NCBI GenBank assembly: GCA_028287235.1
Contig: JAQBQB010000026.1
Span: forward strand, 310,001-374,000
Length of the DNA: 64,000 nt
Direction: 5' to 3'
Source of the DNA: Gemmatimonadota bacterium
GTDB lineage: Bacteria > Gemmatimonadota > Gemmatimonadetes > Gemmatimonadales > Gemmatimonadaceae
Under the pieces are notes generated by a model that was not told where the DNA came from, did not search any database, and saw only the letters and a program-made list of their open reading frames with translations. Shown here piece after piece: positions 3,383-37,910 of the stretch. Position 1 is the first letter of the stretch; each line of letters begins with the position of its first letter. Position numbers and translations under genes: made by a program.

Positions 3383-3919
3383 ATGACCGACGAAAAGAAG
3401 ATCCACGACGATTGCGAGCAGCACGACTGCTTCGTTCCGACCAGCCGCCGCCGCTTTTTGCGCGACAGCTTCCTCGGCGTAGCCGGTGCGCTCATCGCCG
3501 TGGGCATGAGCAAGAGCGACGCGTTCGCGATGCCGATGGCGTTCACCGAAGCAACTCGTTCCTCCGGAGCGACGCACAGCTACACGGTACCGGCCGCCGA
3601 CGGCGCGCAAATCGACAAGGACAACGAGGTCATCCTCGTGCGCTGGCAGAACGCCATCTACGCGTTCAGCCTCTCCTGTCCGCACCAGAACACCGCGCTC
3701 AGGTGGGACGACCGCGACCACACCTTCCAGTGCCCGAAGCACCACTCGAAGTTCACGGCGGCGGGTGCCTACATCGCCGACAGCGGCCGCGCGACGCGCA
3801 ACATGGATCGCCTCGCCATTCGGCGCGACGGCGCCGGCGTCACCGTCGACGTCGACAAGCTCTACCAGGAAGACACCGACGGACCGCAGTGGGCCTCGGC
3901 GGTGGTGAAGCTCAGCTAA
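3383..3919 (+). CDS. exported Rieske [2Fe-2S] protein
   Basis: 178 residues. The N-terminus carries a Tat-type signal (SRRRFLRDSF followed by a hydrophobic stretch to AFA at about 49), as expected for a cofactor protein folded before export. The cluster motif is intact: C99-P-H101 and, 16 residues on, C117-P-K-H120, giving the two Cys and two His ligands. No quinol-oxidase cytochrome b or oxygenase partner is adjacent, so it is probably a stand-alone periplasmic electron carrier rather than a bc1 subunit. The last 8 bases overlap the end of the convergent YeiH gene. Confidence 0.92.
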   Translation: MTDEKKIHDDCEQHDCFVPTSRRRFLRDSFLGVAGALIAVGMSKSDAFAMPMAFTEATRSSGATHSYTVPAADGAQIDKDNEVILVRWQNAIYAFSLSCPHQNTALRWDDRDHTFQCPKHHSKFTAAGAYIADSGRATRNMDRLAIRRDGAGVTVDVDKLYQEDTDGPQWASAVVKLS

Positions 3920-35575: not shown

Positions 35576-35603
35576 TTGACGCCCTTCCCCCGTTGGCTAC
35601 TTT
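35576..35603 (+). promoter_or_regulatory. promoter of the Met/Cys-rich leader
   Basis: TTGACG (35576-35581) and TACTTT (35598-35603) are separated by 16 nt, placing transcription start at about 35610-35611, the first base of the leader ATG. No Shine-Dalgarno lies before that ATG. The leader mRNA is therefore probably leaderless. A TATACA at 35603-35608 is an alternative -10 but gives a 21-nt spacer. Confidence 0.55.
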
Positions 35604-35610
35604 ATACACT

Positions 35611-35700
35611 ATGACCTCCGCCCAAAACATGTGTCGCTGTTACATGTGTACGTGTCTCATGTGCCAACCGGCTACTGAGGCTCAGGGCGTTCGCATCTAG
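35611..35700 (+). CDS. 29-residue Met/Cys-rich leader peptide (putative attenuator peptide)
   Basis: Translates to 29 residues with three Met and five Cys in residues 7-18 (MCRCYMCTCLMC), two and a half copies of an M-C-x-C-x unit at 15-nt period (ATG TGT nnn TGT nnn). Four of five Cys codons are TGT although the region is very GC-rich. The stop is TAG at 35698. It starts at the predicted transcription start and is followed 22 nt later by a strong terminator, then by a ligase and a sulfonate/sulfone-type monooxygenase. Cys-rich leader peptides control sulfur genes in actinobacteria; here the same logic is inferred. An alternative is a tiny metal-binding peptide or a modified-peptide precursor. 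Confidence 0.68.
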   Translation: MTSAQNMCRCYMCTCLMCQPATEAQGVRI

Positions 35701-35722
35701 CGGCTCACCAGCACGCGACTCG

Positions 35723-35757
35723 CGCCCCGATCCTCCCTCAGGATCGGGGCGTTTTTG
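35723..35757 (+). terminator. intrinsic terminator/attenuator between leader peptide and ATP-grasp gene
   Basis: cgccccgatcc (35723-35733) pairs perfectly over 11 bp with ggatcggggcg (35741-35751), loop tccctca, then tttttgtt. An alternative pairing exists: ctgagg (35675-35680) with cctcag (35736-35741), enclosing gggcgt (35685-35690) with gcgccc (35722-35727, one G-U). It would remove the left arm and the first base of the right arm. A ribosome reaching the leader stop would cover 35685-35690; one stalled on early Cys codons would not. Confidence 0.85.
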
Positions 35758-35835
35758 TTAGAGCGAAGGATTGCCCGCCCCGATCCGAGTGACGAAGCGC
35801 AGAGTCGACGTTTGTCGACCTTCACCCGGATTGTC

Positions 35836-36861
35836 ATGCAACCGATCGCCATCTACCACGAGCACCCCGACTGGTTCAAGCCGCTCTTCGCGGAGTTGGA
35901 CCGGCGCGGGCTGCCCTACGTCAAGCTCGACGCCGCGGCGCACGTGTTCGATCCCTCGGAAGACGACGTGCCGTACTCCCTCGTCGTGAACCGCGCGAGC
36001 CCGTCCGCCTATCTGCGCGGACACCGGCAGTCGACCTTCCACACGCTGCACTGGCTGCGGCACCTCGACCGCATCGGCATTCCGGTCGTCAACGGTTCCC
36101 AAGTTTACTCATACGAGCTCTCGAAGGCCTCGCAGCTCGACCTGCTCGAGGAGCTCGGCTTCCCGTATCCGGCGTCGCGCGCGATCAACCATCCGTCGCT
36201 CGCCGCTCAGGCGGCAAAGGACCTGCGCTACCCGGTGCTGGTGAAGGCGAACATCGGCGGCAGCGGCGCGGGAATCGTGCGGTACGATTCCGAAGCGGCG
36301 CTCACCGGCGCGATCGCGCGCGACGAAGTGGAGCTGGGTGTCGACGGTGTGGCGCTCGTGCAGGAGTCCGCACCGCTGCGCGACGGACACATCGTTCGGG
36401 TCGAGACGCTGGGCGGAAATTACCTCTACGCGATCAAGGTCTATCCCGCGGTCGGCTCGTTCGACCTCTGTCCGGCCGACGCCTGCCAGACGACGAACGG
36501 CGTGGAGCTCGTGCGCGGCGCCTGCGCGATCGACGCGCCGAAGACCGGCCTGCGTGTGGAAGGCTTCACGCCGCCGAAGGAGATCATCGAGCAGGTCGAA
36601 GCGATCTCGCGCCGCTCCGGACTCGACATCGGCGGCATCGAGTACCTCGTCGACGACCGCGACGGCAAGCACTACTTCTACGACATCAACGCGCTGTCGA
36701 ACTTCGTGGCCGACGCGCCCAATGTGGTCGGGTTCGACCCATGGGTGAATTTCGTCGACTACATCGAGAAGCGAGTGGCGCGAGGCGAGAAGCGAGGCAC
36801 AGCCTCGACCTCGGGCACGGCTGCCAACTCCTCTCTCTCCTCGCAGCACTCCCTCCCATGA
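35836..36861 (+). CDS. RimK-like ATP-grasp ligase
   Basis: 341 residues from ATG at 35836; an upstream in-frame ATG lies within the terminator T-tract region and is rejected. YPVLVKANIGGSGAGIVRYDS is the ATP-grasp glycine-rich loop with its Lys; VALVQESAPLRDGHIVRVETL and DIGGIEYLVDDRDGKHYFYDINALSNF supply the ATP- and Mg-binding acidic residues and Asn. The N-terminal pre-ATP-grasp domain begins IAIYHEHPDWFKPL. It should join a carboxylate to an amine or thiol, as in RimK or glutathione synthetase. The start overlaps into the monooxygenase gene (ATGA), and expression is probably gated by the upstream attenuator. Confidence 0.85.
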   Translation: MQPIAIYHEHPDWFKPLFAELDRRGLPYVKLDAAAHVFDPSEDDVPYSLVVNRASPSAYLRGHRQSTFHTLHWLRHLDRIGIPVVNGSQVYSYELSKASQLDLLEELGFPYPASRAINHPSLAAQAAKDLRYPVLVKANIGGSGAGIVRYDSEAALTGAIARDEVELGVDGVALVQESAPLRDGHIVRVETLGGNYLYAIKVYPAVGSFDLCPADACQTTNGVELVRGACAIDAPKTGLRVEGFTPPKEIIEQVEAISRRSGLDIGGIEYLVDDRDGKHYFYDINALSNFVADAPNVVGFDPWVNFVDYIEKRVARGEKRGTASTSGTAANSSLSSQHSLP

Positions 36862-37910
36862 GATACGGCTACTGGATGCCCGTCTTCGGCGGATGGCTGC
36901 GCAACGTGGAAGACGAAGGGATGGCGGCGTCGTGGGACTACGTGAAGCGTCTCGCGCAACGCAGTGAAGAGATCGGCTACGACCTCACGCTGGTCGCGGA
37001 GCTGCTGCTCAACGACATCAAGGGCATCGAAGCGCCGTCGCTCGACGCGTGGTCCACGGCCGCGGCGCTCGCGGCGGTGACGGAGCGCCTGGAGTTGATG
37101 GTGGCCGTGCGTCCGTCGTTCCACCCGCCGGCAATTCTCGCGAAGCAGGCGGCGAACATCGATCGCATCTCGAACGGGCGTCTCTCGCTCAACGTCGTCT
37201 CGGCGTGGTGGAAGGACGAGGCGCGCCGCTACGGCGCGGCCTTCGACGAGCACGACGATCGCTACGGCCGCACGAAGGAGTGGCTCGACGTGGTGGACGG
37301 CGCCTGGAGCAACCCCACGTTCAGCTACCACGGCAAGTACTACAACAACGACGACATCGTGCTCGAGCCAAAGCCGGTGTCGCGCGCCGGCCGCCGTCGT
37401 CCCACGATCTACGCCGGCGGTGAATCGGACACGGCGAAGTCGTTGATCGCGCGCCAGTGCGACGCGTACGTCATGCACGGCGATCCGGCCGAGCGTATCG
37501 CGCCCAAGATCGCCGACATGCGCCAGCGCCGCGAGCAGGCCTCGGAAGCGCTCGGCGTCGATCTACCGCCGATGACTTTCGGCGTCGCCGCGTACAGCAT
37601 CGTTCGCGATACGGAACGCGAGGTGAAAGCGGAGATCGAGCGCATCACCAACGTGACGGAAGGTTCGCCGGGCTACGGGAACTACCGCGATTGGATCGCC
37701 AACACGAAGCTCGAGCAGCAGGTGAGCTTGCAGGACTACTCGGTGTCGAACCGCGGTCTGCGCGCCGGCCTCGTCGGCACGCCGGACCAGGTCGCGGAGC
37801 GCGTCGCGGAGTTCTCGGCGGCGGGCGTGGACCTGCTGCTGCTGCAGTGCAGCCCGCAACTCGAGGAGATGGAACGGTTCGCCGAGAACGTGATTGCGGC
37901 GAGAGTGTAG
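36858..37910 (+). CDS. LLM-class flavin-dependent monooxygenase (SsuD/SfnG-like)
   Basis: 350 residues from ATG at 36858. The TIM-barrel luciferase-like fold is clear: RYGYWMPVFGGWLRN, EEIGYDLTLVAELLLNDI, RLELMVAVRPSFHPPAILAK and RISNGRLSLNVVSAWWKDEARRYG, the last two characteristic of FMNH2-dependent alkanesulfonate (SsuD) and dimethylsulfone (SfnG) monooxygenases. YNNDDIVLEPKPVSRAGRRRPTIYAGGES binds the flavin phosphate. Such enzymes release sulfite from organosulfur compounds during sulfur starvation and need a separate flavin reductase, not seen nearby. Coupled to the ATP-grasp gene. Confidence 0.88.
   Translation: MRYGYWMPVFGGWLRNVEDEGMAASWDYVKRLAQRSEEIGYDLTLVAELLLNDIKGIEAPSLDAWSTAAALAAVTERLELMVAVRPSFHPPAILAKQAANIDRISNGRLSLNVVSAWWKDEARRYGAAFDEHDDRYGRTKEWLDVVDGAWSNPTFSYHGKYYNNDDIVLEPKPVSRAGRRRPTIYAGGESDTAKSLIARQCDAYVMHGDPAERIAPKIADMRQRREQASEALGVDLPPMTFGVAAYSIVRDTEREVKAEIERITNVTEGSPGYGNYRDWIANTKLEQQVSLQDYSVSNRGLRAGLVGTPDQVAERVAEFSAAGVDLLLLQCSPQLEEMERFAENVIAARV

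Follow-up and report, generated by a model that had tools for sequence, protein, structure and literature searches.

A tiny Met/Cys-rich gene that appears to serve as a sulfur gauge for an ATP-grasp/monooxygenase operon in soil Gemmatimonadota

In soil Gemmatimonadota, a tiny gene built around Met and Cys codons seems to report on the sulfur supply of the cell. The gene lies upstream of a two-gene operon encoding an ATP-grasp ligase and a luciferase-like (LLM) flavin-dependent monooxygenase, in a 64,000-nucleotide stretch of DNA (referred to as the window) from a genome of 5.73 Mb, whose relatives, found by name, are Gemmatimonadaceae. We consider it highly probable that the region functions as a ribosome-mediated transcription attenuator that senses the supply of sulfur amino acids, although this assessment is computational and no transcript or reporter data are available. 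The best reading is that charged tRNA-Cys and tRNA-Met are both sensed. Attenuation had been proposed in a preliminary description of the sequence, and the proposal is supported computationally by a conserved, locus-specific antiterminator, by the promoter spacing, and by the occurrence of SAM riboswitches in sister loci.

Layout, composition, and conservation of the leader

The elements named in the preliminary description (the short open reading frame, its Met/Cys density and use of TGT, the promoter, and a terminator at 22 nt) are all present. The sigma-70-type promoter (35576–35603, forward strand) consists of a −35 box TTGACG (35576–35581), a 16-nt spacer, and a −10 box TACTTT (35598–35603), and promoter scoring gives this position the highest score within 300 nt. 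A generic promoter scan called no site at the window leader because its cut-off is stricter. Only 7 nt separate the −10 box from the ATG at 35611 that opens the leader, an open reading frame of 29 codons (MTSAQNMCRCYMCTCLMCQPATEAQGVRI; 35611–35700, forward strand) ending in TAG (35698–35700). The leader has homologues in related genomes, and a leader-peptide profile search recovers it from its own genome with an E value of 3e-10. Eight Met/Cys residues fall within 12 positions, the sensor codons (ATG, TGT, and TGC) lie at about 35629–35664, and TGT accounts for four of the five Cys codons. The Cys residues follow an M-C-x-C-x arrangement; a contiguous Cys run, seen as CCCC in some relatives, is absent. 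Downstream, on the same strand, the ATP-grasp ligase (341 aa, RimK/LysX/ArgX fold group, first gene of the operon) occupies 35836–36861, and its stop codon overlaps the start of the LLM monooxygenase gene (36858–37910, 350 aa) in the sequence ATGA. A TTG at 35755 was rejected as the start of the ATP-grasp gene, since it marks only the mechanical longest open reading frame; the start is at 35836.

A Cys/Met-rich short open reading frame precedes the ATP-grasp/LLM operon in about 30 related loci, which belong to Gemmatimonadota with one exception from Acidobacteriota. When 59 related genomes were searched, a clear homologue of the ATP-grasp gene was identified at 30 loci, with the LLM gene next in line at those inspected, and the Cys/Met-rich frame lies upstream of the operon in all four homologues from the same genus as well as in many others. 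Further leaders, among them one in a Terriglobia locus, came from a named set of 80 loci. When a profile of 13 leaders was run against 179 genomes of the family, 14 strong matches (E ≤ 4e-5) were obtained, and the ATP-grasp gene was present in every locus fetched for these matches. Hence, the comparison proposed in the preliminary description gives a positive answer: Met/Cys codons are conserved upstream of homologous ATP-grasp/LLM pairs, and so is the presence of a terminator. Conservation is not universal. Some divergent leaders (L023, L021, and L069) contain few Cys/Met codons, and the family loci L020, L026, L063–L066, L071, and L079 have no recognizable leader or riboswitch.

The promoter had been described as firing onto the ATG, and the spacing that this requires is conserved in homologous leaders. 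In 25 of 30 leaders the −10 box ends 6–10 nt upstream of the start codon, with TTGAC most often located at 16–17 nt from the −10 box, and mostly there is no equally scoring position nearby. A gap of 6–10 nt is too short to accommodate a Shine-Dalgarno sequence, which implies that the leaders are translated from leaderless messages. This remains an inference from sequence, as is the actual transcription start, because no 5′ end has been mapped.

We scanned 632 kb of related loci in six frames on both strands for short frames of 14–120 aa (a few of the loci being the same contig fetched twice) and found 24 with at least seven Cys/Met per 12 residues, of which all but one are located immediately upstream of the ATP-grasp/LLM operon and read in its direction (23 frames). 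In the 30 leaders taken together, 14.4% of residues are Cys and 10.7% are internal Met; the remaining reading frames of these upstream regions have 3.3% and 0.9%, respectively, and Met is enriched about twelve-fold overall. For His, the difference is marginal (5.5% versus 4.1%). One leader, that of L017 (HRCHMCHWHHMPMM), has many His residues beside its Cys and Met. Of the Cys codons in leaders, 44% are TGT; the corresponding share is about 11% for a set of nine ATP-grasp genes, and window genes use TGT for 3 of their 25 Cys codons. The profile search found no second leader copy in the window's own genome, where the window leader is the only match at E ≤ 10. Weak matches in other genomes (E 0.002–0.08) lie away from any ATP-grasp/LLM operon and were discarded as chance-like. 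Hence, the profile search gives no indication of a wider regulon of Cys/Met leaders.

Which of the two amino acids dominates can only be inferred. It is possible, but in our view rather unlikely, that Cys alone is sensed and that the Met codons serve an RNA structure formed by the sequence CATGTG; this would be a sub-variant of attenuation and not a replacement for it. CATGTG does recur in the leaders, and its last copy lies inside a conserved small hairpin over the last Met-Cys codons (35658–35674, forward strand, in the window, where the hairpin is weak). In relatives this hairpin reads CATGTGYC-AAYC-GRCACATG, and an exchange of C-G for T-A in L004 and L005 leaves it paired; it may perhaps act in pausing, which is a guess. 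The enrichment of Met as a whole argues against a purely structural role, and so do leaders in which, outside the hairpin, internal Met outnumbers Cys (five Met and two Cys in L038, and four Met and two Cys in L035). Sensing of both amino acids is the preferred reading.

The predicted terminator–antiterminator switch

An intrinsic terminator (GCGCCCCGATCCT-CCCTC-AGGATCGGGGCGT followed by a T-run; 35722–35757, forward strand) starts 22 nt after the leader stop codon and consists of a 5′ arm (35722–35734), a loop (35735–35739), and a 3′ arm (35740–35752). The 5′ arm doubles as the partner of a putative antiterminator strand, TGAGGCTCAGGGCGT (35676–35690, forward strand), which lies past the last Cys codon and ahead of the leader stop. 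The two segments form 11 base pairs with a predicted ΔG of −18.2 kcal/mol (shuffle p = 0.017). An alternative pairing of 35675–35690 with 35722–35741 had been noted before; the pairing is real, whereas its earlier size of 6+6 base pairs was too short, given the 11 base pairs found over 35676–35690.

The same pairing was assessed in 30 leaders, using the segment from the last Cys codon to the stop against the terminator 5′ arm. The duplexes are more stable than those of dinucleotide shuffles (Fisher p about 5e-14, a value that is optimistic since the loci are related), and the 3′ edge of the antiterminator usually falls 3–10 nt before the stop codon within the genus of the window and groups sister to it. 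The shuffle test detected no significant antiterminator in L025, L028, L029, L072, and L074. Since a MAFFT alignment of the leaders was too gappy for counting covarying pairs, we used an arm-swap test in its place. Leaders combined with their own terminator arms had a mean energy of −22.0 kcal/mol, compared with −18.8 kcal/mol for swapped arms, and none of 20,000 permutations was as good; the same result (0/20,000) was obtained for a subset of 15 diverged loci. The advantage of the own arm over swapped arms indicates that complementarity was maintained while the terminators changed, and such persistence through terminator divergence is the behavior expected of an antiterminator, as far as can be judged from sequence comparison.

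Folding with a modeled ribosome footprint points in the same direction. Predicted pairing of the terminator 5′ arm with the leader averages 0.79 when the ribosome is placed on the first of the Cys codons and 0.30 when it is placed on the stop codon, and in all 24 loci examined (24/24) the stalled state gives the higher value. Considered at equilibrium, the antiterminator usually loses to the full terminator, which entails that the switch must be kinetic, like classical attenuators. By computation, three criteria for an attenuator of the trp/his type are fulfilled, namely a leader rich in the regulated codons, an intrinsic terminator, and a mutually exclusive antiterminator; a fourth, increased read-through on starvation for the sensed amino acid, is a prediction.

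The proposed mechanism is as follows. Transcription would begin at or beside the ATG of the leader, giving a leaderless message to be translated by a 70S ribosome. As long as charged Cys- and Met-tRNA are available, this ribosome would reach the stop codon and mask 35676–35690, so that the terminator (35722–35752) could form and transcription would end. When sulfur amino acids are scarce, the ribosome would be expected to stall at the Met/Cys codons, where the rare TGT is over-used, leaving 35676–35690 free to pair with the 5′ arm of the nascent terminator. With the antiterminator paired, RNA polymerase would continue into the ATP-grasp/LLM operon. Both the stalling and the read-through are inferred.

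Control at the level of translation, or by Rho, could in principle take the place of intrinsic termination, the more so since the closest experimentally studied relatives, those of mycobacteria, act by translation attenuation (PMC9031893, PMC13236596). We nevertheless regard it as very unlikely here, because nearly all leaders are followed by a strong intrinsic terminator, and between loci the leader segment varies in step with the 5′ arm of this terminator. Terminator tails are poor in T in L036, L035, and L038.

SAM riboswitches at the equivalent position

A SAM-II riboswitch (RF00521) takes the place of the leader in about 25 sister loci and is followed by a terminator in those inspected. 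The matches score above the Rfam gathering threshold in L010, L011, L013, L014, L039, L042–L045, L052, L053, L056, and L061; in the remaining loci the core pattern was matched, with scores below this threshold. In L014 and L056 the riboswitch precedes an upstream FMN-reductase gene. Eight Bacteroidota loci (L081, L087, L089, L092, L094, L098, L100, and L108, from the genera Pontibacter, Rufibacter, Sabulibacter, and Nafulsella) have a SAM-I riboswitch (RF00162) upstream of the ATP-grasp/LLM operon, followed by an open reading frame whose final three to seven codons before the stop are all Cys, at about 2600–2750. Both riboswitch classes are sensors of sulfur status as well; unlike the leader peptide, they bind SAM directly and do not need translation.

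Mapping the regulators onto a quick tree of the ATP-grasp proteins requires at least 14 changes of regulator label, and the starred branches of this tree force at least seven changes for the Cys leader. Two devices also occur together: a SAM-II riboswitch and then a Cys/Met leader stand in tandem before a single operon in L013/L053 and in L016. These tandems could be evolutionary intermediates or a two-signal gate. The loci with both devices allow the turnover from one type of RNA regulator to another to be traced in extant genomes, and a peptide-codon sensor and metabolite riboswitches emerge as interchangeable inputs for one operon. L017 has a separate SAM-II riboswitch downstream of its operon (3646–3721).

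The SAM-II covariance model had no match in the window leader or in those of L002–L006, and a search of the window leader against Rfam returned no known family; a hit to Atu_C7 (17.9 bits versus a cut-off of 45) was rejected. In the window's own genome, SAM-II elements do occur before metH and a metX-like gene (gene names assigned by inspection of translations). This organism thus employs SAM-II at methionine genes, with the leader peptide serving the ATP-grasp/LLM operon.

The exchange with SAM riboswitches also bears on the idea that the peptide senses a metal such as copper, with metal binding or ribosome stalling regulating the operon. Copper-controlled Cys-rich uORFs exist in Bordetella, CxC and Met are soft-metal ligands, and CxC, Met, and His occur in some leaders, L017 being an example. 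Even so, a metal sensor seems highly improbable to us, slightly more so than translational or Rho-dependent control, considering the SAM riboswitches at the equivalent position in sister loci, the absence of metal genes from the operon, and the marginal enrichment of His.

Known leader systems and the enzymes of the operon

Several known systems share features with the attenuator proposed here. Leaderless poly-cysteine short open reading frames have been described in mycobacteria (Canestrari et al. 2020, cited in PMC9031893 and PMC13236596). As described in the two citing papers, they resemble the window leader in being leaderless, rich in Cys codons, and located before sulfur genes, with stalling due to uncharged tRNA-Cys as the signal; they differ in that they act by translation attenuation of cys operons in Actinobacteria, whereas the window combines an intrinsic terminator and its matching antiterminator with Met plus Cys codons and an ATP-grasp/LLM operon in Gemmatimonadota. 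Cys leader peptides of Actinobacteria have been reported without terminators, and no conserved terminator was found upstream of the mycobacterial cys operon (PMC1262725). The uORFC-8-2 motif before cysS in Rhodobacterales is closer in mechanism, since it combines Cys codons in a uORF with an intrinsic terminator and predicted ribosome-mediated transcription attenuation outside Actinobacteria; it has two tandem Cys codons and controls an aminoacyl-tRNA synthetase gene, and the passages describing it mention neither a Met run nor a leaderless start (PMC8632094). The MetL leader before metBA in Campylobacter jejuni resembles the window leader in having Met codons as the proposed sensor together with a short terminated RNA, which for the window is predicted from the terminator. 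Unlike the window leader, MetL uses Met only, with three codons, and precedes a biosynthetic operon (PMC3847290).

In view of the predicted Rhodobacterales cysS attenuator (PMC8632094) and the Campylobacter Met leader (PMC3847290), the earlier suggestion that such control would be new outside actinobacteria was too strong. What is new is narrower: mixed sensing of Met and Cys, a leaderless start combined with an intrinsic terminator, the operon that is controlled, and the repeated exchange with riboswitches. The open-licence literature contained no description of a mixed Met/Cys leader, of the regulation of this operon, or of an exchange between a leader peptide and a SAM riboswitch. A mixed Met/Cys code would differ in design from single-amino-acid attenuators. 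The full proposition is that a leaderless intrinsic-terminator attenuator pooling Met and Cys codons, repeatedly swapped with SAM-II and combined with SAM-I in Bacteroidota, marks an undescribed ATP-grasp/LLM sulfur-acquisition pathway of Gemmatimonadota, Bacteroidota, Planctomycetota, and Acidobacteriota; we regard this as about as likely as not. The regulation does provide a handle on an operon of unknown chemistry, as it suggests that ATP-grasp/LLM activity is wanted when sulfur amino acids or SAM are low.

The LLM protein had been described as SsuD/SfnG-like and as part of a sulfur-scavenging operon. It matches best to SfnG (dimethylsulfone monooxygenase; E 1e-69) and then to SsuD (E 1e-50), and the three share a branch of the LLM family. 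The scores are below both equivalog cut-offs (235.6 of 383 bits for SfnG and 172.4 of 518 bits for SsuD), and, unlike SfnG and SsuD, the operon protein is coupled to an ATP-grasp ligase and has no known substrate. Its nearest solved relatives are 3rao (an unassigned LLM protein) and 8vw6 (deposited as an alkanesulfonate monooxygenase). PAPS reductase was not found in the window's own genome (G000) or in G002, G004, and G023, while it was present in 14 of 14 control genomes. A nitrite/sulfite reductase is present in the window's own genome; none was found in G002, G004, and G023. In G023, a complete genome (locus L018), leader and operon are kept with neither reductase detectable, which argues against a simple scheme of sulfite release and reduction there. 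With this and the sub-cut-off scores, only the general SfnG/SsuD neighborhood of the earlier assignment stands, and sulfite-releasing sulfur scavenging is not established.

The predicted model of the ATP-grasp protein (pLDDT 85.6) resembles LysX/ArgX/RimK, with the substrate unknown, and also the graspetide macrocyclase PsnB. Given this resemblance and the adjacency of peptide and ligase, the Cys/Met peptide might be a RiPP-type, graspetide-like precursor processed by the ligase and the monooxygenase, yet this is the least credible of the alternatives, because about 25 loci with the ATP-grasp/LLM pair have SAM-II and no Cys peptide in its place, the peptides show Met/Cys enrichment at variable spacing without a fixed core, and the peptide is separated from the ligase by a terminator that has its own matching antiterminator. 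Attenuation remains the preferred reading.

The ATP-grasp protein belongs to a subfamily of unknown function that is coupled to LLM, has a conserved LCPAD motif, and occurs in Gemmatimonadota, Bacteroidota, Planctomycetota, Acidobacteriota, and Armatimonadota. In the operons of L015, L029, L030, and L056, an SsuE-like FMN reductase gene is located directly upstream; two of these, L029 and L030, have the Cys leader in front of the resulting three-gene operon.
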